40,687 bases of DNA from a virus. The stretch spans positions 1-40,687 of the IMG/VR virus record IMGVR_UViG_3300025418_000660; one strand, given 5' to 3'. The notes beneath the pieces were generated by a model. The model ran no database searches. It was given only the letters and a program-made list of their open reading frames with translations, and was not told the DNA's origin. The position numbers and the translations under genes are program-made. Of the stretch, positions 7,231-22,046 are shown in pieces. Within the stretch, counting starts at the first letter, position 1, and each line of letters begins with the position of its first letter.

Positions 7231-9240
7231 CTACTTAGATTGTGCCCTAAAAGTGCCATCCCATTCAGCCGGGAGGCCCTCTTCCATACGTTCAATCATG
7301 TTCATGTAGTACTGCTTGATGGTTACGCTGTCATCTTCGACCAAACCTTTGGCCCATTTGATAGCTTTATCCCAGTTTCCACGATAGTATTCTTTTATGT
7401 ATTCATTATGCGCGTGTTTAACTGTCTCACCGATCGTGTAGATCTTAATGCCTTCAGTCTTACCTTTCACTGCGATGTTATCTAGTTCAATAACGTTGTA
7501 ATGGTCTTTAACTAGTTCTGCTGTGCGTGCACCTAAAACAAGCTTAACACCGTACGGCTTAGATTGTCCTTCAAGCCTTGACGCCAAATTGACTCCGTCA
7601 CCGAGACAAGTATAGTCAAAACGCTGGCTAGAACCCATATTACCCACAACGACATCAGCAGTGTTAATACCAAGTCCCATCCCGAAAGCCGGTACGCCTT
7701 CTTTAGCAATCTCTTGATTGAACGCATCTAAGTCTCCTAACATTGATAGTGCAGTCTTAACTGCGTTGAGAGCATGATCTTTATCATCAAGTGGAGCATT
7801 CCAAAATGCCATCTGCGCATCACCAATATACTTATCAAGTGTTCCGTTGTTCTCTATGATCTTAGCAGTCATAGCTGTCATGTAACGATTCATGATCTTA
7901 GTTAAGCCTTGTACATCCTTACCATAGTGTTCTGATATGGTTGTGAAGCCTCTTACGTCTGTAAACATGATACTTAATTCTCTTGTTTCACCACCAAGCT
8001 TTAATAACTCAGGGTTCTTTTGTAGTTTATCAACCATTGCTGGTGATAGGTATGTACCAAACTGTTTCTTGATCTGTAGTTTTTGGTTTAACTCGCTTAC
8101 AAACTTAACAGTATATGTATGAGCATATACGATAGCCAAAGCAACGATAGGAAAAATCCCATCCAAAAGAACGCCGTAATGAGAGAAAACATAACTAGAA
8201 GCGTAATACAAAAAGCCAAGAAGAAGCAAAATAGGGATAATAGCATATTTCCACCTTGATAGGATAATGATAAAGATTGATAATAATATGACTGCTAATA
8301 CTTCAGCGCCATCTGCCCAGCCAGGTCGTGATATGCTAGTACCTGATGTGAGCGTGTCTAGAACTGACGCTTGAAGGTAATGAGGAAAGAGTCCACCTCG
8401 AGCTGTTGCAACTGGGTTGTTAAGTCCCTTTGCGGTAAGCCCAACAATGACGATACCTCCGTCAAATGATTCTGGGAGGTCCATAAGACTGTGTTCAATT
8501 GGAGTCGAGCTCCAGTCGACCCAGATACGACCGATTGGGTCGGTTGTAATTTTGGAGAAGCTTGGGATTCGAACAGCTTCGATTCCTGAAACGGAAGATT
8601 TGACTTGGAAACTTGGGTCTCCGACTGCGACACGCAAAGTTTCGAGAGTAATACTTGGGTAGAGCAAGCCTCCGCTTGATACGACCATAGGGATACGACG
8701 AACAACACCATCAATTTCAGGTAAGACATTTACAACTCCTATTCCAGCAGCTTTGTTATTAAATAGTTCAATGTTAGGTTGGATCCCAGGGTAATCAATA
8801 GTGAAGTCATGAGCTGGTGATCCAATCTCAGAGACTCCCGGTCTAAATGCTTGTCTAACTTGTTTATCTGTCGATGCTACCTGAGGTAAGACGACAGGGT
8901 GTCCAGCAAGACTATCAACCAAGTTGGCATCGCGTCCAAAGCGATCAGAGTCAGGCATAAAGATATTAAAAACAACAAGACCAGCATGACGGTGATAAAG
9001 ATCCTCGATAATATTTGCATATTGACTCCTTGGAAATGGGAATTGACCAAGTCTTTCAATCGACTTATCATCGATGTTAACCACGTGGACTTGCTTGGAA
9101 ACGGTCTGTGGTTTACTAGTAATTAGTGTATCAAAGTACCTTAGTCGAACTGACTGCACAAAAGATGGGTCAGATGCTCTAATACCTACTAGCAGAGCTA
9201 ACGTTAACAGTGCAAACCAGGGTGATAATAATCTTTTCAT
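7231..9240 (-). CDS. CHASE2-domain class III adenylate/guanylate cyclase
   Basis: Membrane-bound nucleotide cyclase of 669 residues, a full bacterial-type sensor enzyme. Order: N-terminal membrane anchor (about 5-20), periplasmic CHASE2 sensor (about 25-305), two or three transmembrane segments (about 310-380), then a class III catalytic domain (about 420-610). Catalytic residues look complete: metal-binding Asp428 in FTDVRGFTT and Asp474 in LDKYIGDAQMAF, base-selecting Lys470 and Thr544, and Asn551/Arg555 in GDGVNLASRLEG. The Lys/Thr pair favours ATP, hence cAMP. It starts with an ATGA overlap after a 43-residue ORF. A complete cyclase is very unusual for a phage; in bacteria CHASE2 cyclases often sit beside FecR-domain genes, as one does here at 11215. 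Confidence 0.93.
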   Translation of the reverse strand: MKRLLSPWFALLTLALLVGIRASDPSFVQSVRLRYFDTLITSKPQTVSKQVHVVNIDDKSIERLGQFPFPRSQYANIIEDLYHRHAGLVVFNIFMPDSDRFGRDANLVDSLAGHPVVLPQVASTDKQVRQAFRPGVSEIGSPAHDFTIDYPGIQPNIELFNNKAAGIGVVNVLPEIDGVVRRIPMVVSSGGLLYPSITLETLRVAVGDPSFQVKSSVSGIEAVRIPSFSKITTDPIGRIWVDWSSTPIEHSLMDLPESFDGGIVIVGLTAKGLNNPVATARGGLFPHYLQASVLDTLTSGTSISRPGWADGAEVLAVILLSIFIIILSRWKYAIIPILLLLGFLYYASSYVFSHYGVLLDGIFPIVALAIVYAHTYTVKFVSELNQKLQIKKQFGTYLSPAMVDKLQKNPELLKLGGETRELSIMFTDVRGFTTISEHYGKDVQGLTKIMNRYMTAMTAKIIENNGTLDKYIGDAQMAFWNAPLDDKDHALNAVKTALSMLGDLDAFNQEIAKEGVPAFGMGLGINTADVVVGNMGSSQRFDYTCLGDGVNLASRLEGQSKPYGVKLVLGARTAELVKDHYNVIELDNIAVKGKTEGIKIYTIGETVKHAHNEYIKEYYRGNWDKAIKWAKGLVEDDSVTIKQYYMNMIERMEEGLPAEWDGTFRAQSK

Positions 9241-9368
9241 TTGATAGCGTGTGTCTTCTTATGTTTTAAACTCTTCTTGATTGCTTTCTTCCAAAGCTTC
9301 TCTTCTTTTTTAGGCTTATGCTTAACGCATGCCTTATACATCTTCATTATTAGTTCTTTAACTTTCAT
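9237..9368 (-). CDS. Very basic 43-residue protein
   Basis: MKVKELIMKMYKACVKHKP followed by a Lys-rich helix ending KTHAIK. It has a clear AAGGAG Shine-Dalgarno and its TGA overlaps the cyclase ATG (ATGA), so the two are translationally coupled. High Lys content suggests nucleic-acid or membrane-surface binding, but no family is recognised. Confidence 0.65.
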   Translation of the reverse strand: MKVKELIMKMYKACVKHKPKKEEKLWKKAIKKSLKHKKTHAIK

Positions 9369-9369
9369 G

Positions 9370-10260
9370 CTATGCTCCTTGTATTTTAAACTTAATATAC
9401 TCTGTTATCAAGTCAGCGACGTCAGTCTCACAATACTGTTCAAACCCTTTAAATCCTGGGTTTGAGTTAGCTTCGCATACTCTAAAGCCTCTTTTGTCGA
9501 ATAGTAAATCCACACCTGCAATATCTAGCTTAAGTACTTTTGCAGTCTCTCTAGCTATATATTCAATCTCGTCAGTTATCTCGTAGTTATGACCGGTACC
9601 ACCATTAGTGATGTTAGCTCTGAAGTCACCCTCTGGTGCTGTACGTCTCATAGCTCCTACTACTTTACCACCTATGACAAGAACCCTTAAGTCCTCACCT
9701 GGACGGTCACCAAGATATTCCTGTACTATCATCGTCTTCTTAGCGTTTAAGATATCGATGAACTCCATCATCTTTTTGTACTCTCTTATGGTCTCACAGA
9801 GGTGTACACCTTCCCCATAAGAACCTGATACCAGCTTAACGACACACGGAAAGCCTATGTTATCAGTCACTAAGTCATCGTCTATAGGCAACCTTACTAA
9901 CATCGTGTTTGGTATAGGTAACCCGTTCTTACTTAATATCTGTGATGTCCTTAGCTTATCTTTTACTATCTCGACAGCAGAGCTTGAGTTAACACACATC
10001 ACGCCTGCTTGTTCAAAGTGTCTTATCACTGCTAGCTGGAAAGGTAGTATGCCTGCACCTAACCTAACCAATAATAACTTTGGTAACTCTATCGTCTCAC
10101 CGTCGTACTTGATACCTTCACGTAGGTCTTTATCTACGATGATGTCAAAGTTATCAGGATGGCAGACACGAGCAGTTATACCTTTTGATGTAAAGCTTTC
10201 TACGAGCTTATTAGTCTCGTACTCGTTTCTTTCCTGCTTTGATAATATAATTACAGTCAT
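9370..10260 (-). CDS. RimK-like ATP-grasp ligase
   Basis: A 296-residue ATP-grasp enzyme of the RimK/alpha-L-glutamate ligase group, which adds amino acids such as glutamate to protein or small-molecule carboxylates using ATP. Visible motifs are FPCVVKLVSGSYGEGVHL (ATP-binding Lys and Gly-rich loop), MIVQEYLGDRPGEDLRVLV and VCEANSNPGFKGFE (metal-binding Glu/Asn). The length matches RimK (about 300). A phage RimK could modify a host ribosomal or other protein; the target is unknown. The ATG has no Shine-Dalgarno and is 5 nt from a -10 box, so the mRNA is probably leaderless. Confidence 0.88.
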   Translation of the reverse strand: MTVIILSKQERNEYETNKLVESFTSKGITARVCHPDNFDIIVDKDLREGIKYDGETIELPKLLLVRLGAGILPFQLAVIRHFEQAGVMCVNSSSAVEIVKDKLRTSQILSKNGLPIPNTMLVRLPIDDDLVTDNIGFPCVVKLVSGSYGEGVHLCETIREYKKMMEFIDILNAKKTMIVQEYLGDRPGEDLRVLVIGGKVVGAMRRTAPEGDFRANITNGGTGHNYEITDEIEYIARETAKVLKLDIAGVDLLFDKRGFRVCEANSNPGFKGFEQYCETDVADLITEYIKFKIQGA

Positions 10261-10265
10261 GACAC

Positions 10266-10294
10266 ATTATAACTTATTATTTAATTAATGTAAA
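10266..10294 (-). promoter_or_regulatory. Sigma70-like promoter, leaderless type
   Basis: Minus strand TTTACA (10294-10289), 17-bp spacer starting TTAATT, TATAAT (10271-10266). The RimK-like ATG begins 5 nt after the -10. Confidence 0.78.
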
Positions 10295-10295
10295 A

Positions 10296-10649
10296 TTATT
10301 CGAAGCCTTCGTTGCGTTTTACACGCCATACATAAGACATCTGTGTTCCATCTGGCCTATCATCATTGATAAGTATACGCTCACCGTTTGGTAAGTTAAA
10401 GATGATGTCGTCAAACCTAATATCATGTTTCTCTAAGAACTTTATAGTATGCTTCTTAAGATACTTTGGTCTAGCAGTGATTAAGATTATATGGTCCTTT
10501 TCAGGTATAGTATCCCAAAACTCTTTAACACCAGGCAATAACTTATCTTTACATACCGCAGACTTTAATAGGTTATATCTTAATATAGTCCCATCAAGAT
10601 CGATAAACCAAGTCTTGCGATGTTTAGACTTTAAGTTAGTTAACTTCAT
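10296..10649 (-). CDS. HAD-superfamily phosphatase-like protein
   Basis: A 117-residue protein with the HAD motifs in order: WFIDLDGTILR (nucleophile and acid Asp), LITARPKYLKK (motif II Thr) and ILINDDRPDG (motif IV). The minimal size, without a large cap, suggests a small-molecule or nucleic-acid 5'/3'-phosphatase, as in polynucleotide kinase-phosphatase domains. The substrate is unknown. It sits between the DUF4337-like and RimK-like genes and directly abuts the former. Confidence 0.82.
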   Translation of the reverse strand: MKLTNLKSKHRKTWFIDLDGTILRYNLLKSAVCKDKLLPGVKEFWDTIPEKDHIILITARPKYLKKHTIKFLEKHDIRFDDIIFNLPNGERILINDDRPDGTQMSYVWRVKRNEGFE

Positions 10650-11213
10650 TTATAGTGGTAACCATAGCCATAAACCTTGTGACATCAATACTACACCAAC
10701 CAAACATAATAGGAATGATGAGTAGAATAATGGCATTGACACTGCAAGGATAGACGCTGATAACAACACGATTGATAACTGGTAAGCTGTACCTGCATAA
10801 CCGATCCATGGAGATCTCTTCTTAGCATAGTCACGGTCAGCTTCTAACTTCTTAGCTGTATCGTACAAAGCTGGTTTTCCCTCTGGACCAAAATCATATG
10901 ACTTAGCTTTCTCTTCAAACTTCTTAGCTAGTACTGGGTTGGTTGCAGTCTGAGCTGAGATCTCATACTGTGTTTGCTTTACTGATTTAGCTTGGTAGAA
11001 GTTCCATAAGTCGTTTGCTTTGATCGTGTTGTTCATGATGAGTGAACCTAATGAACCTCCGAACCATACGTTAAATGCCAATAAAGCAGCAAATATATTA
11101 ATGATTAAACCCGCATGTGATTTAATCTTAACCTCTTTTTCTGATCTTGAAGGTCCAATGTTCTTAGTCTCTTCCTTTGTTAATGTCTTAATGACCATAT
11201 CTTCTAAAGCCAT
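10650..11213 (-). CDS. DUF4337-like membrane protein
   Basis: A 187-residue protein with an N-terminal hydrophobic segment (about 33-50), a soluble loop with DLWNFYQAKSVKQTQYE, and two C-terminal membrane segments (about 143-183). The loop motif and topology match DUF4337 proteins, which are of unknown function. It lies directly downstream of the FecR gene, with which it is probably cotranscribed. Confidence 0.72.
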   Translation of the reverse strand: MALEDMVIKTLTKEETKNIGPSRSEKEVKIKSHAGLIINIFAALLAFNVWFGGSLGSLIMNNTIKANDLWNFYQAKSVKQTQYEISAQTATNPVLAKKFEEKAKSYDFGPEGKPALYDTAKKLEADRDYAKKRSPWIGYAGTAYQLSIVLLSASILAVSMPLFYSSFLLCLVGVVLMSQGLWLWLPL

Positions 11214-11214
11214 G

Positions 11215-12279
11215 TTAGTTTCCTTTTTGATTGATGGTTATACTATTGGTCGTTTGGTCTTGATTTTTTAAATTTACCGTTACGCCATTTTGTATAATAT
11301 TTATATTGTATCCTTTATCTTTATCTATTAATACTGTAGCACTATCTTTAACTGTTCTTTGTATCATCCAATATGTTTGTTTGTCAAAAATATAAACTTG
11401 ATTTAGAGCATTATATCCTACAACAAAAGTAGCTAACAATGTATTATCAAGAGCATTTGTTAAATAGTTTGTATCAAGAGGATTAACATCTAGTTCATTG
11501 AAACCCGCATATGGGTCTTTAAATACTTTTGAATCTAATGCATTTTGTTCCAATCCTGTAAACTCTAAAGCAGAACCAGATTTATTGGCTATTTCAGCTT
11601 GTATTCTTTCAACAACTTCTTTTGGAGGTTTAACGATAAGCATATTATCAATAGCTGATTCTGATAAAGCTAATAGAACAGGTTTAAGAGGTTTAATTTC
11701 TGATGATTTTGTTACTGTAGCTTGAAATGCTTGGTTTAAAACAACTTTTCCCATAGCTGTGCTAACTTCAATTGAACCAACTGAACCATCTGGATTAGGT
11801 AATAAAATAATGAGAGATTGACCTATTTCATCTACTGTCATTGTGAATGCTGTACCACGAACAGCAACAGTTGCCGTTGGTGTATTGATTGCTACATTCT
11901 TATTATTTTCATGTGCAATATTACCTGATGCATAGCGAACAGTTCCCATTGTTACATTGAGAGCTAATTTACCTGCACCTTTTTTATTGGGGTCATAGAC
12001 AAATTCGTCTATAAGAAGTTTTGAATGTTCTGTGACTTTTACTTGAGTTTTATCTTCAAATGTAATGCCTACTATTCCATTGCCTGTTTGAACAATATCA
12101 TTACTATCTATATTTGATTTAGGTTTAGCCTCTATTACATCTTTATTTCTAGTAATAGAGGCTGGACCTTTTTGTTCAGTTATAGAACCAATTACCGCCC
12201 AACTAGTGTTGGATAACAGAAACAGAAGCGTTGTTACCAGTAAGGTTAACAATCGCACTATTTGGGTTGGTCGTACCAT
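11215..12279 (-). CDS. FecR-domain exported protein with curlin-like tail
   Basis: A 354-residue protein with a strong Sec signal peptide (residues 1-28, ending SNTSWA), then a FecR-type domain (about 35-190) including VQTGNGIVGITFEDKTQVKV and INTPTATVAVRGTAFTM, a hallmark of the family. The extreme C-terminus (INIIQNGVTVNLKNQDQT then NSITINQKGN) resembles curlin-type Q-x-G/N repeats, so it may join or nucleate the fibre made by the neighbouring gene. In bacteria FecR-domain proteins of this sort act at the envelope and are often beside CHASE2 proteins. Its first 77 nt overlap the end of the curlin gene in another frame, and there is no good Shine-Dalgarno. Confidence 0.85.
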   Translation of the reverse strand: MVRPTQIVRLLTLLVTTLLFLLSNTSWAVIGSITEQKGPASITRNKDVIEAKPKSNIDSNDIVQTGNGIVGITFEDKTQVKVTEHSKLLIDEFVYDPNKKGAGKLALNVTMGTVRYASGNIAHENNKNVAINTPTATVAVRGTAFTMTVDEIGQSLIILLPNPDGSVGSIEVSTAMGKVVLNQAFQATVTKSSEIKPLKPVLLALSESAIDNMLIVKPPKEVVERIQAEIANKSGSALEFTGLEQNALDSKVFKDPYAGFNELDVNPLDTNYLTNALDNTLLATFVVGYNALNQVYIFDKQTYWMIQRTVKDSATVLIDKDKGYNINIIQNGVTVNLKNQDQTTNSITINQKGN

Positions 12280-12910
12280 CTTGAGTCACACTTATATTAT
12301 TTGAATTACCAATGTTGTTAATACTAATACTATGGCCTGCACCAGCACCAGTACCATTTGCACCTGTTTGGCTTGTGGTGATACTGTTATTGTTACCTGC
12401 AATTGCTATAGTATCTGTAACATTTTTACTGTTTATGGTACTTGTTATCGAATTACTATTTCCTACAGTAGTGATGCTATAGTTATAATTACTCGAATCT
12501 CTCATTGTTCCTATATTCAATACAGAATTATTGTTACTACCTGAAAACGATAAATTTAAATTACCGTTATCAGTACCAAAGTTTCCGTAATTCAATACGA
12601 TACCGTTACTATTACCATCTTGAGATATTACTCCTGTAGAACCACCACCAACAAAATTACCTGTGATAGAGTTGTTCATACCGTTTTGTGTGATACCTAA
12701 ATTAATACTGTTACCATCAATCACAAATGATGGACTACCAACATTAGTAGGATCTCCTACCGTGTTGTTAGAACCTGTTTGTGTTATGGTGACTGTAGAA
12801 TTATCAGCGTTAGTTTGGTCAATATAAACACTATTACCTCCACTATCGACTGCCAAAGCACTAAATGCTAATAACAAACCCATCACAAAAGTGATAAGCT
12901 TACTTTTCAT
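12203..12910 (-). CDS. Curlin-repeat (CsgA/B-like) amyloid-type protein
   Basis: About 235 residues. Signal peptide MKSKLITFVMGLLLAFSALA, then a long array of Asn/Ser/Gly/Thr-rich imperfect repeats with the curlin spacing (SVYIDQTNADNSTVTITQTG, NSNNISVTQDG, GNNNSITTSQTG). Such repeats form amyloid fibres exported through CsgG. The start at 12910 is chosen because AAGGAG sits 7 nt upstream and the signal peptide begins there, not at an ATG 39 nt earlier. It overlaps the csgG stop by 11 nt. It is longer and less regular than E. coli CsgA (about 151 residues). The end (NASVSVIQH) is dual-coding with the FecR signal peptide. Confidence 0.87.
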   Translation of the reverse strand: MKSKLITFVMGLLLAFSALAVDSGGNSVYIDQTNADNSTVTITQTGSNNTVGDPTNVGSPSFVIDGNSINLGITQNGMNNSITGNFVGGGSTGVISQDGNSNGIVLNYGNFGTDNGNLNLSFSGSNNNSVLNIGTMRDSSNYNYSITTVGNSNSITSTINSKNVTDTIAIAGNNNSITTSQTGANGTGAGAGHSISINNIGNSNNISVTQDGTTNPNSAIVNLTGNNASVSVIQH

Positions 12911-13682
12911 TCTTTTTCTCCTTAAATTGCCACATACCTTTTTTTTCACCTTGAATAATCAATTGCTCTACCGCCAGGTCTGTAGCTGCTTTTATGGCGT
13001 GTATAGAAGCCTCTGTTTGAGATATTCCTATCTCTTGTTCAAAATTTTGTGTTCCATTATCAAAAAACTTAAATATAGCTACACCTGCTGTATAACTCAA
13101 TATGGTTTTTTGAGCGTTTACTGTTAATAGCACTTCACCTGTTTGTGTGCTAATTGCTCTTATGCTTACAGTTACAACATCTTCTTGATATTGTGTGTCT
13201 GGTCCAATTCCTAACCAACGAACACCAATACCACCTGTTCTTATGTTTGTATCGTAACTTATAATACCTCCTTCAATAATCATACCTGCATATAACATAG
13301 GTCTGATACCAGAAGGATCTTTTGCTTCATCTCTTGCTGAACGAATTAATTGTCTTTCTTTTAATAAATTATCAATACCAACTCGTTCTACTATTCTAAA
13401 CCATTTTCCGTCACCAGCATCTTCTAATGACTTTAACAATACTGTTTCACCACCTTGTGTTACAGCGGATGATAACTTAGCAATCGTAGCAGAATCTTTT
13501 CTTTGACCAGTTTTATCAGCAAAGCTATAAACAGCTACAACTACTTTACCATTAACAGGTTCAGGTAACGGAGTCTTAGCCCATTTCATTGGCATAAGCT
13601 CTGGTTCTTTTTTAATAACATTCATTGGCGGTGTGCAACCAATTACTACTATACACATAAGTGCTATTAATATTTTTTTCAT
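12900..13682 (-). CDS. csgG: CsgG-like outer-membrane curli secretion lipoprotein
   Basis: A 260-residue homologue of CsgG, the nonameric lipoprotein channel that exports curli subunits across the outer membrane. It has a lipobox signal peptide (IVVIGC, lipidated Cys16), followed by KVVVAVYSFADKTGQRKDS, AVTQGGETVLLKSLED, RLVI-like FRIVERVGIDNLLKERQLI, and GGIISYDTNIRTGG then GVRWLGIG, which match the CsgG core and transmembrane hairpin region. Length agrees with E. coli CsgG (277). It follows csgF by one base and overlaps the curlin gene, forming a compact csgF-csgG-curlin-fecR operon. Confidence 0.94.
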   Translation of the reverse strand: MKKILIALMCIVVIGCTPPMNVIKKEPELMPMKWAKTPLPEPVNGKVVVAVYSFADKTGQRKDSATIAKLSSAVTQGGETVLLKSLEDAGDGKWFRIVERVGIDNLLKERQLIRSARDEAKDPSGIRPMLYAGMIIEGGIISYDTNIRTGGIGVRWLGIGPDTQYQEDVVTVSIRAISTQTGEVLLTVNAQKTILSYTAGVAIFKFFDNGTQNFEQEIGISQTEASIHAIKAATDLAVEQLIIQGEKKGMWQFKEKKNEK

Positions 13683-13683
13683 A

Positions 13684-14121
13684 TTAGAAACTTAATGTTC
13701 CAATAGGAATACTAACTTGCGTCACATTACCATTTTGATCATTAACAGTCATGTTAATCATGTCAGCTGTTTTGGTGTATGTAATAGTATTACCTTCAAT
13801 GGTAACAGTTCCACTATTTTGTGGATTCTCACCAAACAGATTATTAATTAATTGTGTAGATAATTGAGCATAGACTCTGCTCTCAAAGTTAGTCAAGAAC
13901 TTGGCTAATATAGTATTATTAGCGGCATTTGCTGCATCGATTGCCGCCTGTTTCTGTGCTTCTGCTATTGCTTGTTTACGAGTATATTCTGTATTCTCTA
14001 TCGTTTGAACGTGAGAAGAGTATCCTATACCTGAAAAGGAAGGAGATTTAAATTGAAACGTCTGTTCTGCATAAGCGTTACTGCTTATCAGTACTACTGC
14101 TAGGATCCTGGCGAGCTTCAT
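13684..14121 (-). CDS. csgF: CsgF-like curli assembly factor
   Basis: A 145-residue protein with a signal peptide (MKLARILAVVLISSNAYA) and then QTFQFKSPSFSGIG, matching the mature CsgF N-terminus (TFQFRNPNFGG in E. coli) that inserts into and constricts the CsgG channel. The rest follows the family: central helix, then two strands ending VTQVSIPIGTL. CsgF couples export to fibre nucleation at the surface. It starts 44 nt inside the preceding membrane-protein gene. Confidence 0.9.
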   Translation of the reverse strand: MKLARILAVVLISSNAYAEQTFQFKSPSFSGIGYSSHVQTIENTEYTRKQAIAEAQKQAAIDAANAANNTILAKFLTNFESRVYAQLSTQLINNLFGENPQNSGTVTIEGNTITYTKTADMINMTVNDQNGNVTQVSIPIGTLSF

Positions 14122-14359
14122 TCTTCTCTTTCTCTCTTAAAGACAGAATAACGTTCACCTTTTGATTGAGCCTAATAAGATCGTTGTCTAACATACGAAT
14201 ACGATCTATCAGTTCAATCAATACCTTATTTGAATCACCTAAAACTGGTTTAATTTCTTCTGTTACCCACTTCCATACATAAAAGATTAGATAACCTAAT
14301 CCTCCAGCAGCAATAATGGGAAACCCATATTTGTTAATTAAAAATGCTATATCACCCAT
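14078..14359 (-). CDS. Small membrane protein with coiled-coil tail
   Basis: A 93-residue protein with one N-terminal transmembrane segment (FPIIAAGGLGYLIFYVWKWV) and a helical tail RIRMLDNDLIRLNQKVNVIL. The tail has the same pattern as the neighbouring 91- and 92-residue proteins (RVAAMNHDVIRIDTKV), so all three are paralogues. Topology resembles small phage holin-like proteins, but placement before csgF suggests an envelope role. It overlaps csgF by 44 nt. Confidence 0.7.
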   Translation of the reverse strand: MGDIAFLINKYGFPIIAAGGLGYLIFYVWKWVTEEIKPVLGDSNKVLIELIDRIRMLDNDLIRLNQKVNVILSLREKEKNEARQDPSSSTDKQ

Positions 14360-14360
14360 G

Positions 14361-14636
14361 TTAATCCCTTCGGGCGTCAGATTGTTCTGCTCTTGCTATT
14401 CTATCCAAATCAGGTGGGATACCTAAGGCATGACTTACTTTGGTATCTATACGAATGACGTCATGATTCATAGCTGCCACCCTTTTGTCAAGGGCTATGA
14501 TAATACCACTCATGCCTTTAACTCCAGATGTTACACCAGCTAAGATAAATTTAAGGGTTAAGAAAACGAAATATCCTCCAGCAAGAGCTGAGGCTATGGG
14601 AAATCCTACCTCTCCTACTAACTTAAGAAAATCCAT
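14361..14636 (-). CDS. Small membrane protein with coiled-coil tail, copy A
   Basis: A 91-residue protein with a hydrophobic segment (about 12-35), then AAMNHDVIRIDTKVSHALGI. It is nearly identical to the 92-residue protein at 15826-16104 apart from the last residues (DARRD here, NRPWWS there). The ATG is 5 nt from an exact TATAAATA and lacks a Shine-Dalgarno. Function unknown; holin-like or membrane anchor by topology. Confidence 0.75.
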   Translation of the reverse strand: MDFLKLVGEVGFPIASALAGGYFVFLTLKFILAGVTSGVKGMSGIIIALDKRVAAMNHDVIRIDTKVSHALGIPPDLDRIARAEQSDARRD

Positions 14637-14840
14637 ATAGCTATTTATATAGATTATGTCTTAGTTTGGAGTTCGTCTATCTCTTGTTCGATTGTTTTTG
14701 CAGGATGGTCTGGGATATGGTCTGCAGGCATCTTAGCGGGATGCCAAGCTTCCTCAGTTGCTGGGCTAACATACTCGTCAGGGTTAATACTATCCTCATA
14801 GTGCAAACCATGGTTGCCGTTCTGAGCTACAGTATCTATA
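14380..14840. repeat. Diverged direct repeat, copy A
   Basis: Same order and strongly similar sequence as 15848-16354: it covers most of a small membrane-protein gene, the intergenic TATAAATA, and the C-terminal part of a larger protein (EYVSPATEEAWHPAKMPADH). The copies differ by scattered substitutions and by about 45 extra bases in copy B, so the duplication is not recent. The shared sequence starts at GATTGTTCTGC. Confidence 0.85.
14642..14649 (-). promoter_or_regulatory. T4-type late promoter box, leaderless position
   Basis: Exact TATAAATA ending 5 nt before the ATG at 14636. Transcription from a T4-type late promoter would start at about the A of the ATG, and no Shine-Dalgarno is visible. 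Confidence 0.6.
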
Positions 14841-15010
14841 CGACTCTCATCCGAGTCTGCTTCTTCTGGGAGGGGTGTAGGATCTGGTTCAAGCCACTTA
14901 CGTTTACGAGGCTTTTTCTTTTTAGGAGGATCAATAGGGTAATTGAACCAAAAAATAATATAAGTTTTATGCTGTCCTTTGGCTAATAATATTAGCCGGG
15001 GTTGATTCAT
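14654..15010 (-). pseudogene. Truncated paralogue of the 400-residue membrane protein (C-terminal part)
   Basis: From about NYPIDPPKKKK onward the frame matches the C-terminal part of the product of 16123-17325 (RIDTVAQNGNHGLHYED, EYVSPATEEAWHPAKMPADH, TIEQEIDELQ). The membrane and coiled-coil parts are missing. The frame extends upstream through the oxygenase gene (open to ATG 15145), but that part looks like an out-of-frame shadow, so 15010 is a nominal start. It is best seen as the truncated arm of a duplication; it may or may not be expressed. Confidence 0.6.
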
Positions 15011-15560
15011 TTTTTTTAAAAATATGAGGCGGCATAATATCCAAAAGAAGATGGATCCTATCCACTGAGCTATTGTTGTCAACAGAGTGTTGGCGCGTGT
15101 TATTAATTTCATAACACACACCCTCTTCCATATTAAACGTTTCATTGCCTACAGAAAAATAAATTTCTTTATGTGTCTTAATAGGAATGTGCAGTCTGTG
15201 GATAGAATTCAAGTAATACCCCATATCAACATGTGGCTTCACTTTTTTTCCTGCGGGTAAATTGATGTAGAGACACTTTCCTACCTTGCCGCCCAACTTA
15301 GTTTCTAGATGTGTCACAATCGGTTTTGTAAGTGCCACAAGCTGGTCATCAATATGGTGGTGTGTTAATGGATAGCCTATGCCATCCCAAGTGGCTTCTA
15401 TATCAGTAATGAAGATATTTTTTGAGTCCCCGTGAAATAACTGATATCGCTCTTGCCTGCTCTTATTAATTTCCCACTCTTCCTGGAAGCTAGTAATTAA
15501 TGAGCGAATGGCAGAAATATCTATGTTTTCAATTATTTTAAAATTACCTTCAAAGTTCAT
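14967..15560 (-). CDS. 2OG-Fe(II) oxygenase, aspartyl/asparaginyl hydroxylase-like
   Basis: A 197-residue protein like the aspartyl/asparaginyl beta-hydroxylase family. The iron-binding pattern is visible: KPHVDMGYYLNSIHRLHIPI (His, Asp-type ligand and 2OG region) and NTRQHSVDNNSSVDRIHLLL (distal His and Arg). These enzymes hydroxylate protein or amino acid side chains using 2-oxoglutarate and O2; many marine phages carry 2OG oxygenases of unknown substrate. It lies inside an insert between two copies of a direct repeat, next to an outer-membrane protein fragment, so it was probably acquired with foreign DNA. The Shine-Dalgarno is weak (AGAGAA). Confidence 0.8.
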   Translation of the reverse strand: MNFEGNFKIIENIDISAIRSLITSFQEEWEINKSRQERYQLFHGDSKNIFITDIEATWDGIGYPLTHHHIDDQLVALTKPIVTHLETKLGGKVGKCLYINLPAGKKVKPHVDMGYYLNSIHRLHIPIKTHKEIYFSVGNETFNMEEGVCYEINNTRQHSVDNNSSVDRIHLLLDIMPPHIFKKNESTPANIISQRTA

Positions 15561-15608: not shown

Positions 15609-15850
15609 TTAAAAGTGTTTAGTTAGGACAACATTTAAAGATTGCATCGTAAGGTCTGCGTTTAAATTATTAGCGCTTCTGAAATGTGAAACGTCAATAT
15701 TTGACCAATTATAATGGTACTCAGCACCCAAGCCCCATGCTTGATCTAGCTTATATTCTAGCCCCAGTTTAAAATTAGCACCAAAATTTACTGAGGTATC
15801 ACTGACATTGCCAGGATTTACAATGTTAGCTCCACCAGGGTCTGTTGGAT
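15609..15850 (-). pseudogene. C-terminal fragment of an outer-membrane beta-barrel protein
   Basis: Minus-strand reading ends at TAA 15611-15609 and encodes about 80 residues including VNFGANFKLGLEYKLDQAWG, LGAEYHYNWSNIDV and a final strand LTMQSLNVVLTKHF. Alternating aromatic/hydrophobic strands and a terminal Phe are typical of porin/opacity-type barrels. No start codon and no N-terminal part remain: the upstream end fuses with the end of the copy B membrane-protein gene at GAACAATC. It is probably a relic of host DNA. A palindrome (GTTTAATATTAAAC) follows within about 35 nt. Confidence 0.72.
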
Positions 15851-16104
15851 TGTTCTGCTCTTGCTATTCTATCCAAATCAGGTGGGATACCTAAGGCATG
15901 ACTTACTTTGGTATCTATACGAATGACGTCATGGTTCATAGCTGCCACCCTTTTGTCAAGCGCTGTGATTATACCAGACATACCTTTGACTCCAGATGTT
16001 ACACCAGCTAAGATAAATTTAAGGGTTAGGAATACGAAATAGCCACCAGCAAGAGCTGAAGCTATAGGAAATCCTACCTCTCCTACTAACTTAAGAAAAT
16101 CCAT
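15826..16104 (-). CDS. Small membrane protein with coiled-coil tail, copy B
   Basis: A 92-residue near-duplicate of the 14361-14636 product: the same membrane segment and coiled coil, but the C-terminus is replaced by NRPWWS, read from the foreign barrel fragment in another frame. The ATG is 6 nt from an exact TATAAATA and lacks a Shine-Dalgarno. This is probably the copy whose end was altered by the recombination. Confidence 0.75.
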   Translation of the reverse strand: MDFLKLVGEVGFPIASALAGGYFVFLTLKFILAGVTSGVKGMSGIITALDKRVAAMNHDVIRIDTKVSHALGIPPDLDRIARAEQSNRPWWS

Positions 16105-19153: not shown

Positions 19154-19695
19154 TAGATGTTCAACTCTTTCTTTAGTTCGTTAAATAAATTCATACAATG
19201 ATCAAATCCTGCTATTGCTTCGTCTAATAGATCTATACTTAACTTAGAGTCTATGTATGCAATGCATGCAGGTCTATCTTCAAATGCATAAGCATGACTG
19301 GGTCCTGGTACTAACTTACCTATCATCTTACCACCGTATAAATCACCCATATGTCTTACATATACATGAGCCATGATCTGGTCTGGTCGACTATCAGCTA
19401 AAGATAATAGATGAAACATGTAATTCTTTGTACTTATATAAGGTGCCACGATAGTTCCACCTAACTCTGCAATATCAAGTGATATCTTATGAGTACGTCT
19501 AAGGTCTTCCATACCTTCAAACAGCCCATGAACTGTAGCGCATGCTTCTAGTGTAGAGTATATATGCCACATCTGTTGAAGGTATGTAAGATAGTGTTCC
19601 TTAGTTATCTTACCAGTGAACATATACTGGACAAAATCAGATCCTTCGACCTCTTTGTGTTTTGCTCGAGTATGTTCTGTAAGTATCGTTGCCAT
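19153..19695 (-). CDS. Heme oxygenase
   Basis: A 180-residue HO-1-type heme oxygenase, which opens heme to biliverdin, CO and Fe2+. Proximal His13 lies in TRAKHKEVEGSDF and the distal helix in VYVRHMGDLYGGKMIG (GDxxGG hinge with the conserved Asp). Cyanophages use heme oxygenase with bilin reductases, but no bilin reductase is in this window. Here it sits between an exported nuclease and nrdB, joined by TAATG overlaps on both sides. Supplying iron for the diiron NrdB is an attractive but unproven idea. Confidence 0.9.
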   Translation of the reverse strand: MATILTEHTRAKHKEVEGSDFVQYMFTGKITKEHYLTYLQQMWHIYSTLEACATVHGLFEGMEDLRRTHKISLDIAELGGTIVAPYISTKNYMFHLLSLADSRPDQIMAHVYVRHMGDLYGGKMIGKLVPGPSHAYAFEDRPACIAYIDSKLSIDLLDEAIAGFDHCMNLFNELKKELNI

Positions 19696-20411
19696 TACTT
19701 AGCGATTGGTAAGTTAAACTTAATACCAGTTGCTTGCTCGATTGCTGGTACAGTTGTTTGATACTTAGGCAAGTCTTTAACGGGTAATGCAGCGTTTGGC
19801 ATTAACCATGCAGTAACTTTCTTACTATTCTTTTCATAAACGATCTTATATAAACGAGTAGGGATACCTAAACCACTACCGATCTTTTGATAACCTTGAT
19901 CCCAAATACCACCAGAGATAACATAGAAGTCTGTGTTTGGTGTTGCAACCCATTGACGTTCATATGTTTCTGCTTGTTTCCAAATACCACGATTGTTGTT
20001 AGCTACTTGTGGAACCATGTTTGATAAGTTAAAACTCTCACTCATGATCGCATCGCTCTGTGTGTTGTTACCTGCTGGTGCCATATGACCGCGGTCATGT
20101 GTTTTACCAACGATAGCATAGTCAGCTAGGGATGCTGAACAGTTAGGTGTTACTAATGCATCAGGGTGAAAATTATCTTTACGTTTTGCTGGTCCACTGA
20201 TTGCTGCTTTTGTTAAATGCTCAAACACTGCTTCTGGAGCTTTAACATCACAACGATGGATTACTGCATAGTTTAAATGACATAACTCTTGGTCACCTGC
20301 TTTTGCTGTATATGTTGGTAATGCTGCTTCAAACTGACTGCAGTCTTTTAAACCTGCAAATGCTGCTGTTGTTGCTGATGCAAAAAATAATGCTGCTATA
20401 ATCTTTTTCAT
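19695..20411 (-). CDS. Exported DNA/RNA non-specific endonuclease
   Basis: A 238-residue NUC1/Serratia-type nuclease with the catalytic signature HDRGHMAPAGNN (general-base His109) and a metal-binding Asn region (NNNRGIWKQAETYE). It begins with a Sec signal peptide (MKKIIAALFFASATTAAFAG), so the mature enzyme is probably periplasmic or secreted, unusual for a phage nuclease. Four Cys residues (about 24, 44, 54, 91) could form disulfides, consistent with export. It starts with an ATGA overlap after the small gene and overlaps the heme oxygenase start. Confidence 0.9.
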   Translation of the reverse strand: MKKIIAALFFASATTAAFAGLKDCSQFEAALPTYTAKAGDQELCHLNYAVIHRCDVKAPEAVFEHLTKAAISGPAKRKDNFHPDALVTPNCSASLADYAIVGKTHDRGHMAPAGNNTQSDAIMSESFNLSNMVPQVANNNRGIWKQAETYERQWVATPNTDFYVISGGIWDQGYQKIGSGLGIPTRLYKIVYEKNSKKVTAWLMPNAALPVKDLPKYQTTVPAIEQATGIKFNLPIAK

Positions 20412-20606: not shown

Positions 20607-22046
20607 TTATGTCCAGACCCTATAGTTTTCGTAAGCACATGGATTTTTTGGATCCAACTCTCTGTAGAATAAACTGTTGACATCTTTGAATGGTGTCCAT
20701 TTTGTTTCAACGAATGGGACTTTACCTAGATATGGGTCAGCATACTTCAATACGAAGTCATATGGTATTGCTTCTGGCTCCACATAACCTTCATTTGGGT
20801 TCTCAATTGCCCATATCATTGCACCTAACATTGATGCAACAACCTGTAATGATGTAGCGTTCTCTCCTGGTATTAGTCTCCTTGCTTCCTCGATAGTTAA
20901 CTGTGAACCGTGCCACATACCAAAGTCATCCCCCAATAATAGCACACCTAATTCATCCATACCACCCACGATCTCATCCTTAGCGATGCGTAGTTTAGTA
21001 TGTAGATCTAACTCTTTACCTCTCATCTCATGTACTGAAGCGATAGCTGCATCACATGGTTGATAGACGTAGTATACTGATGGCCTAAACGATTTATCTT
21101 TAGTTTCAAAGTATTCTGATATCGTTACAGCTTCTGAGTGTTGGATATGGAAGCCATTGTATTGACCACCTAATGGAACCCATGATCTTAGTAACACTGA
21201 TACACCGGGTTGGAATAGGTATGCAGTGTTACCTTGTGCTTTACCATTCTCTGGGTTAGTATCTTCGTGTGTACCCCAACCCATCTCAGCGGGAGCTCTA
21301 CCTTCTGCCCAAAAACCTTCACATGACCATGTATTTACAAACTCATTCTTTTCTTTTGGTTCACCAAGGACTTGTGTGTCACGTTCTGCAACATGTACTA
21401 CCTTAACACCAACCTTCTTCATCAACTGTGCCCAACCTTCTTTATCGGTTGGTACTACATACTTGATGCCTTTCTTTTCTGCTAACTTGAGTAACGCTCT
21501 CTTAGTAAGGTGTGTCACCAAACCAGGGTTTGCACCATGAGTTCCAACAACCGTTGCTGCACCTTTGTACTTCTCTGCCATAGCACGAACTTCTTTATGA
21601 GTATGGTATAGTGTACGTTCTGCTAGTTTAGGGATAGTCTCGTCTGGTTCATCTTCCCATCTTTCAAGAGATGTATTGATGTAATGAACACCATGTTTTA
21701 AACACCATTCAAGGATCTCAAGTGCACCGATGTTTAGTGATACATCGATAACAAACCCACCTTCATCTACATACTTTGATAGTGTAGATTCTAAGTTATT
21801 CCTTAAGATCTCTTTCTTAATGTATGTGACTGCAGACTTACCATTACGTTCTTTAAAAGTTTTTTCGTTCTCACCCTTCTCAAGCACTATAATGTTAGAT
21901 GCTTCAGATGTGATGTGTCTAAGGATTATTGGTAAGATCGCTTGACCTACAGATCCATAACCTAAGATCAAGATCTTCCTACCATCAAACTTTACATACT
22001 TCTTATTTTTATAGTCTATGAACTTACTAAAATTTTCTATTGCCAT
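20607..22046 (-). CDS. hss: Homospermidine synthase-like enzyme
   Basis: A 479-residue NAD-dependent enzyme like bacterial homospermidine synthase, which makes sym-homospermidine from putrescine (saccharopine dehydrogenase-like fold). Signs: Rossmann motif ILILGYGSVGQAILPIILRH (about 25-44), VVGTHGANPGLVTHLTKRAL, and a length that matches the family (about 475-480). Polyamines neutralise packaged DNA charge, so a phage copy could help with DNA condensation or growth. It directly follows nrdA (33-nt gap). Saccharopine dehydrogenase itself is a less likely alternative. Confidence 0.88.
   Translation of the reverse strand: MAIENFSKFIDYKNKKYVKFDGRKILILGYGSVGQAILPIILRHITSEASNIIVLEKGENEKTFKERNGKSAVTYIKKEILRNNLESTLSKYVDEGGFVIDVSLNIGALEILEWCLKHGVHYINTSLERWEDEPDETIPKLAERTLYHTHKEVRAMAEKYKGAATVVGTHGANPGLVTHLTKRALLKLAEKKGIKYVVPTDKEGWAQLMKKVGVKVVHVAERDTQVLGEPKEKNEFVNTWSCEGFWAEGRAPAEMGWGTHEDTNPENGKAQGNTAYLFQPGVSVLLRSWVPLGGQYNGFHIQHSEAVTISEYFETKDKSFRPSVYYVYQPCDAAIASVHEMRGKELDLHTKLRIAKDEIVGGMDELGVLLLGDDFGMWHGSQLTIEEARRLIPGENATSLQVVASMLGAMIWAIENPNEGYVEPEAIPYDFVLKYADPYLGKVPFVETKWTPFKDVNSLFYRELDPKNPCAYENYRVWT

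Follow-up and report, generated by a model that had tools for sequence, protein, structure and literature searches.

A curli, FecR and CHASE2-cyclase gene set in a T4-like phage: a curli pore and its possible link to cyclic-AMP signalling

Gene content of the locus and its relatives in phages

The stretch of DNA analyzed here, in the following called the window, is the linear virus record IMGVR_UViG_3300025418_000660 of IMG/VR with a length of 40,687 bases. Its minus strand carries a module related to the curli secretion system, in the order smB, smA, csgF, csgG, a curlin-repeat gene, a FecR-domain gene, genes of DUF4337, HAD-like and RimK-like proteins, an open frame of 43 amino acids, and a gene for a cyclase with a CHASE2 domain (Table 1). 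The genes from csgF to FecR abut or overlap each other and form one operon. An earlier inspection, the sequence-only reading, had proposed this overlapping operon of csgF, csgG, curlin-repeat and exported FecR-domain genes together with a complete CHASE2-class III cyclase on a T4-like phage. All of these genes were recovered in place: Pfam profiles matched CsgG, CsgF, curlin, FecR and CHASE2, and both cyclase-protein domains are complete within a single protein. The T4-like carrier holds as well, with matches to primase, NrdA and NrdB in the window and a gp23 capsid gene on a 160-kb contig that is a near-twin of it; a 15-kb stretch of this contig (L006) aligns to the window at 97-99% over four main blocks and at 93% over one repeat. 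Two members had been missed, since smA and smB (14078-14636) belong to the set, too.

Table 1. Features of the module in the window
Feature	Position	Strand	Evidence
smB, first module gene, 91 aa	14361..14636	-	phrog_18771 2.8e-34; alignment; two hydrophobic segments
smA, paralogue of smB, 93 aa	14078..14359	-	phrog_18771 1.9e-34
csgF	13684..14121	-	PF10614 1.5e-17, over cut-off; phrog_35372
csgG, lipoprotein outer-membrane secretion pore	12900..13682	-	PF03783 1e-48; E. coli CsgG structures 6.4e-45
Curlin-repeat fibre subunit	12203..12910 (GTG reading to 12949)	-	PF07012 2.5e-6, three stretches
Exported FecR-domain protein, curlin-like C-terminal strands	11215..12279	-	PF04773 4.4e-8
DUF4337 protein, insert gene 1	10650..11213	-	PF14235 6.7e-24
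Small HAD-like protein, insert gene 2	10296..10649	-	PF03767 1.3e-4, below cut-off; phrog_1238 1.9e-9
RimK-family ATP-grasp ligase, insert gene 3	9370..10260	-	PF08443 2.9e-49; TIGR00768 9.3e-68, over cut-off
43-aa Lys-rich frame between RimK and cyclase, overlapping the cyclase start	9237..9368	-	open frame
CHASE2 sensor and class III adenylyl cyclase, 669 aa	7231..9240	-	CHASE2 5e-38; Guanylate_cyc 1.5e-18; phrog_35576 2e-281
TATAAATA, T4-type late-promoter-like sequence ahead of smB	14642..14649	-	sequence match

Related loci were collected by CsgG and by smB, taking in each case the 80 confirmed places most like the window, out of 92 and 495, respectively. Among them, 66 and 78 loci were newly fetched and examined, of which 42 and 25 had enough flanking sequence. 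All 42 viral loci that were anchored on CsgG and are flanked by 3 kb or more on both sides contain smB, smA, csgF, csgG, curlin, FecR and cyclase. Loci anchored on smB with flanks of 5 kb or more on both sides reveal smA, csgF, csgG, curlin and FecR in 25/25 and the cyclase in 22/25. Among loci fetched by FecR or cyclase, a choice that biases the count and includes some contigs twice, all seven genes occur in 69/73; three lack the cyclase and one lacks smA. Judged by gene content, the seven genes from smB to cyclase form one conserved set.

When 50,697 phage records were searched by tblastn, six of them, belonging to HTVC008M and four Melnitz strains, proved to contain the cyclase (aligned along 90-99% of its length) together with FecR and CsgG. 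HTVC008M (NC_020484) and Melnitz (MZ577097) share all seven genes with the window in the same order, at identities of 37-39% for the cyclase, 41-47% for CsgG and 38-40% for FecR. They differ from it by a second, curlin-like gene between FecR and cyclase, a gene that is absent from the window; DUF4337, HAD and RimK gave no match at this place in either phage. The suggestion that other phage genomes be searched for the same set was thus fruitful, and it overturned the expectation that fibre subunit, putative anchor and cyclase had not been seen together in phages.

The literature leads to the same conclusion. As far as the available parts of these papers go, csgF, csgG and three more genes were described in 2020 (PMC7029224), the curli set of Melnitz in 2022 (PMC9004378), and csgF, csgG, CsgA/B, FecR, cyclase and a 'histidine kinase' in myo- and podophages in the same year (PMC9599517). 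The type VIII secretion module of pelagiphages in the last of these resembles the window in its csgF, csgG, CsgA/B, FecR and adenylate cyclase genes, in their order, and in one or two genes placed before csgF. The window departs from it by the DUF4337, HAD-like, RimK-like and tiny basic genes between FecR and cyclase and by the missing second curlin gene; furthermore, in the loci analyzed here, the leading genes, given there as one or two histidine kinases, encode small proteins that lack a kinase domain. The curli/FecR/cyclase combination is therefore already published, and the window is a new carrier of it with an unusual insert. What we add is the description of seven genes, a late-promoter pattern, doubts about the labels 'histidine kinase' and, for FecR, iron regulator, and a comparison with bacterial barrel/FecR/CHASE2 loci.

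The late-promoter-like sequence TATAAATA precedes smB by no more than 70 nt in 32 of 80 distinct upstream stretches. Before the other module genes it occurs in 4/521 in total, i.e., smA 0/75, csgF 1/81, csgG 0/83, curlin 1/78, FecR 0/86, second curlin 0/22 and cyclase 2/96. The gene starts behind these counts, as behind the gene calls in all loci, are the first start codon after a stop and are unverified. The window contains nine matches, all on the minus strand and six of them between genes; at least nine matches on both strands were reached in 4 of 100 shuffles of the window. According to the available part of PMC9004378, TATAAAT was used there as late-promoter sequence. Judging by this pattern, at least some T4-like members probably express the module late.

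Between FecR and cyclase, the sequence-only reading had listed DUF4337-like, HAD, RimK-like and small basic genes. DUF4337, RimK and the small basic frame stand, while the HAD call is weak: the Pfam match remains below its cut-off, and PHROG matches point to phosphoheptose isomerase (1.9e-9) and polynucleotide kinase (2.3e-5). Near its start the protein has a DLDGT motif, which we take to be HAD motif I. DUF4337, HAD-like and RimK-like genes occur together only in close relatives of the window (L004, L006, L008, L009 and L011; L084-L087, which also have the three-gene insert, are the same contigs). Two loci (L013 and L091) contain DUF4337 and HAD, and some others just one insert gene. Locus L007 shares 90.6% DNA identity with the window from smA to FecR, yet it is devoid of all three insert genes, and its cyclase gene aligns to the window at 74% over 1,084 bp only. 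The gap between FecR and cyclase amounts to at most 60 bp in 64/111 phage loci, a count with the bias just mentioned for FecR- or cyclase-fetched loci, versus 1975 bp in the window's type. Because the insert is confined to close relatives, is missing from L007, and replaces a usual gap of at most 60 bp, it looks like a late, strain-level event. The proposal that a whole matrix and signalling module was later split by other genes is in good agreement with these gaps and with the overlap of FecR and cyclase in a bacterial locus described below.

Properties of the module proteins

The smB protein has a hydrophobic N-terminal half followed by a coiled-coil-like part and a conserved C-terminal DARRD; smA likewise combines a hydrophobic N-terminus with a coiled-coil-like part. 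At a lax hydropathy threshold exactly one segment was predicted in 54/78 smA and 35/77 smB proteins, and smA of the window falls below a stricter threshold. Both are probably membrane-bound proteins. Searches against Pfam gave at best weak matches below the cut-offs and no kinase domain, and profiles compared with the PDB yielded mostly weak coiled-coil matches and nothing convincing. In some loci smA and smB are located on the opposite strand past the cyclase, with linkage nevertheless kept. Six of the 50,697 phage records contain them, namely two of HTVC008M and four of Melnitz, and csgG is present in all six. The seventh csgG record of this collection is a fragment of 1,499 bases (OR851715.1), an unannotated Salmonella phage entry half of which is a csgG relative with 36.5% identity; it is possibly host DNA.

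From position and number we infer that smA and smB are the 'histidine kinases' of PMC9599517. The HATPase_c domain was found in 0/11 phage records, including HTVC008M and Melnitz, versus 17 matches in a bacterial genome searched alongside, and in none of the examined loci is the module preceded by histidine kinases. For MW574966, a genome from the same paper, no curli annotation was seen in the 45 kb inspected. In the window, smB has a second copy (15826-16104, minus strand), which lies in a 260-nt direct repeat of 14361-14636 that is 95% identical, 1468 nt apart, and altered at the C-terminus. Two copies are also present in the near-identical contig L004 and one in the L006 stretch; given this difference in copy number, the duplication is likely to stem from recombination.

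CsgF of the window scores 64.4 bits against a Pfam cut-off of 25.8 and has the N-terminus TFQFKSPSF; no PDB sequence matched it at E<=1. In CsgG, PF03783 exceeds its cut-off and the lipid-acceptor cysteine is aligned in 90/90 phage rows. For the curlin gene, a start at 12910 is likelier than the GTG at 12949. Its repeats match PF07012 with 27.8 bits (cut-off 20.7), and the motif Q.G..N occurs four times versus a mean of 0.17 in shuffles of the same protein. The equivalog model of CsgA, NF007470, reaches only 21.7 bits of the 160 required, and hence the protein is curlin-like rather than a CsgA equivalog. Its structure model is beta-rich, with a pLDDT of 80.9.

A FecR family match at E<=1 was obtained for 33/33 aligned relatives of the FecR protein. 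In the last strand Q351 is invariant (33/33), and Q330 is kept in at least 90%. The protein of the window has a signal-like hydrophobic segment at residues 5-23, which suggests a periplasmic FecR domain, and a FecR-like fold from residue 27 on. A cytoplasmic anti-sigma N-terminus before the membrane segment was not found. Its AlphaFold model superimposes with residues 58-212 on the cell-surface-signalling domain (CSSD) of PupR (6ovk; Z 15.7, 135 aligned, 2.5 A) and with residues 27-122 on the 'cell surface anchoring domain' 5ix9 (Z 10.0, 73 aligned, 2.1 A). The latter presumably represents the retention region of an RTX adhesin; the code itself could not be confirmed in the literature. The sequence profile found nothing convincing in the PDB.

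The C-terminus of FecR was compared with a curlin-strand profile built from 232 windows of phage curlin proteins, applying a lax threshold to the tails. The profile matches 37/102 phage FecR tails. In the controls it matches 0/102 FecR bodies, 0-2/102 shuffled tails in 20 rounds, and 0/24 bacterial FecR tails, including that of the Hyphomonas locus L164 described below. An ending of strands and Gln is present in 90/102 FecR proteins; two of the other 12 are cut by a contig end. Phage FecR proteins thus tend to end in what appear to be curlin-like strands. Since the anti-sigma part is missing and relatives share the curlin-like tail, a plain iron regulator is unlikely, and a role as adaptor or tether is more plausible than the iron regulation given in the literature.

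Residues D428, K470, D474 and R555 of the cyclase are kept in 109/109 phage cyclases, T544 in 100/109 (six Ser, three Asp) and N551 in 106/109. The Lys and Thr of class III cyclases select adenine. By its aligned residues, the protein keeps what is needed for making cyclic AMP (cAMP). GC and AT skew are positive at 8001-9000, inside the cyclase gene, whereas almost every other kilobase of the window has negative values.

Bacterial counterparts

A pattern scan of one genome per species (84,980 species) gave 57 candidate stretches, of which six loci were confirmed with a FecR alignment. In Hyphomonas sp. TMED17 (locus L164), csgF, csgG, curlin, FecR and cyclase are arranged in phage order on a 705-kb contig of a metagenome-assembled genome, between metabolic genes and with FecR and cyclase overlapping. 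Unlike the phages, this locus has no smA/smB match and its FecR has no curlin-like tail; the curlin-like protein is longer (504 aa) and without a Pfam curlin match at E<=0.01. The csgF gene occurs in 21/105 genomes of TMED17's family. Neither FecR nor cyclase matched in 25 other curli-bearing stretches from its family and class, from which a weaker CsgF match below the cut-off (G293) was left out. Within the genus, TMED17 alone of 29 genomes has a FecR match. The CsgG tree places L164 beside phage locus L161, inside the phage clade, and a single clade of the 23 phage-like rows without L164 was rejected (approximately unbiased test, p-AU 0.0165). In a quick cyclase tree, L164 forms a long branch adjoining 13 phage rows (SH-aLRT 90). 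Two loci titled as a Flavobacteriaceae metagenome-assembled genome (L162 and L163) are short contigs with smB-smA as in phages and were treated as phage-like. As the sole bacterial copy found groups inside the phage CsgG clade, the set may have passed between phage and bacterium in either direction, and its capture as a whole from a bacterium is one possibility.

The neighbourhood of FecR and CHASE2 genes in bacteria, mentioned in the sequence-only reading, is borne out in the order of Hyphomonas. Here, 20 stretches from 19 genomes were fetched, the top of 37 genomes with a FecR match among 299. In 9/20, a neighbouring gene combines CHASE2 and cyclase domains; one weaker cyclase-profile match (L244) was left out of the domain testing. 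A homologous gene encoding tetratricopeptide repeats (TPR) and an outer-membrane barrel is present in 18/20 loci and in 9/9 of those with a CHASE2-cyclase. Among nine tested barrel genes, seven reveal SlipAM, BBP2_2 or Porin_10 and two only TPR, all with weak scores. The barrel profile was built from nine of its own 18 matches, the other nine having no part in it, and it found no match in phage or curli-only loci. Conversely, CsgG, CsgF and curlin had no match in the fetched stretches. Thus, where the phages have CsgG, these bacterial loci have a barrel of another family. The TPR/barrel gene beside FecR, often with a CHASE2-cyclase, seems to be a signalling triad in its own right (L240-L259), of which our literature search found no description among the papers listed.

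A possible pore-to-cAMP relay and competing explanations

We consider the module to be a type VIII (curli) secretion unit of the phage whose outer-membrane pore may be wired to a cAMP sensor. Pore and fibre would be made late in infection, and the periplasmic FecR domain with its curlin-like tail would bind the fibre or the pore from inside, thereby seeding or tethering the fibre. Through FecR, the CHASE2 domain of the cyclase might then sense the state of the pore, and the enzyme would raise cAMP in the infected cell, with smA and smB as candidate membrane partners dedicated to the module. The gain for the phage could be an altered surface of the infected cell (fibre coat, aggregation, superinfection exclusion) or the timing of cell opening. 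We put the probability of this reading, in which signal and effect are the conjectural parts, at roughly 0.4; gene content, residues and folds are what the analysis establishes, and the relay from pore through FecR to CHASE2 is drawn by analogy. Several observations in the available parts of the literature are in line with it. For CHASE2 cyclases of S. meliloti, the response to an outside protein runs via the outer-membrane barrel NsrA (PMC13001267), CyaD1 without CHASE2 makes cAMP constitutively (PMC5498481), and a biofilm operon of Burkholderia has FecR-domain proteins next to CHASE2 histidine kinases (PMC5192318).

In a more specific and more doubtful form, the phages would have rebuilt the barrel/FecR/CHASE2-cyclase triad with the curli pore as the barrel and curlin-like strands on FecR, such that contact of fibre or pore signals to cAMP late in infection, with a pair of small phage proteins dedicated to this task. 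The curli pore might stand in for the bacterial TPR/outer-membrane barrel because the same FecR/CHASE2-cyclase pair adjoins that barrel in bacteria, and phage FecR and cyclase resemble the rear part of a bacterial arrangement leading from pore to cAMP. Among the papers listed, no published proposal of this substitution was found by title or start of abstract, in a search with most subscription journals outside its reach. If true, the module would be a phage-made surface sense organ that signals across both membranes, beyond a mere secretor of fibres. With the module described in this way, cAMP of infected cells as well as contacts of FecR to CsgG and CHASE2 become directly measurable in two cultured phages.

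A number of results weigh against the relay. The exact TATAAATA is missing before smB in 48/80 stretches, and 3/9 matches in the window lie inside genes. FxFxxPxF of CsgF, taken here as the pattern of the N-terminal segment that plugs CsgG, occurs in 40/90 relatives only. At the positions of the E. coli constriction, most CsgG residues are different; bacterial alphaproteobacterial sequences depart from E. coli there, too, for which reason a phage-specific shift of the constriction was rejected. The curlin model has no significant fold match in the PDB, curli CsgA (8c50) reaching only E 1.5. The FecR model is middling (mean pLDDT 74.7), the tail match is weak (best i-E 0.024, with 65/102 tails unmatched), and for the FecR tail of the window only one of three patterns exceeds shuffles (p 0.008). 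Just two lineages are represented among the named phages with smA/smB. Among the bacterial FecR loci the barrel is missing in 2/20, and one of these (L243) has a CHASE2 protein with a SpoIIE domain and no cyclase. A phage-encoded cAMP receptor was sought as well: no cNMP-binding family was found in nine large phage contigs, fragments being possible, so that the effector must be the host's or an unknown one. Finally, Melnitz cultures were without clumping, according to the available part of PMC9004378.

The latter observation also speaks against a competing explanation, in which a surface amyloid makes hosts clump together ('sibling capture') or keeps other phages out, and FecR and cyclase merely regulate fibre production. 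This hypothesis of PMC7029224 and PMC9599517, as set out in their available parts, is supported by the curlin gene and by the additional curlin-like gene that various relatives carry. It sits less well with a FecR that lacks the cytoplasmic anti-sigma part of the iron-citrate FecR and has a curlin-like tail common to relatives. The CsgE gate (PF10627) was found in 0/12 records (11 phage records, including HTVC008M and Melnitz, both complete, and the 160-kb near-twin searched in place of the window, and one bacterial genome), though fibres are still possible without CsgE. We regard it as a tentative alternative.

Less probable still is a device for lysis or egress, in which the CsgG pore, or smA and smB acting like holins, would time the opening of the cell. 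Such a role would suit the late-promoter sequence at smB and two small, paralogous, probably membrane-bound proteins, and a pinholin idea is put forward in the available part of PMC9004378. However, smA and smB are confined to csgG records in the phage collection (two lineages), which is odd for a general holin; the match to a holin profile is weak (phrog_4898, E=0.053); and fibre, FecR and cyclase are left unexplained. A counter-defence or metabolic hijack in which the nucleotide product is what counts and the curli genes merely travel along is very unlikely: the best PADLOC match of the cyclase is a Pycsar cyclase (1.3e-24), which may reflect the shared class III domain only, whereas the adenine-specifying Lys and Thr are kept, the CHASE2 sensor is complete, and cyclase and curli genes occur together in 42/42 CsgG-anchored loci. 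The pore-to-cAMP relay remains our preferred reading.

Outside the module, an Rfam scan of the window gave no riboswitch or other element at gathering score. On the minus strand, 20607-22046, between the NrdB and NrdA genes, encodes a saccharopine-dehydrogenase-like protein (Pfam 1e-24 and 2.4e-23; no PHROG match at E<=0.001), and 19695-20411, near nrdB, a DNA/RNA non-specific endonuclease (PF01223 2.4e-37). Between the two smB copies, 14967-15560 on the same strand encodes an aspartyl/asparaginyl beta-hydroxylase (PF05118 9.8e-15).

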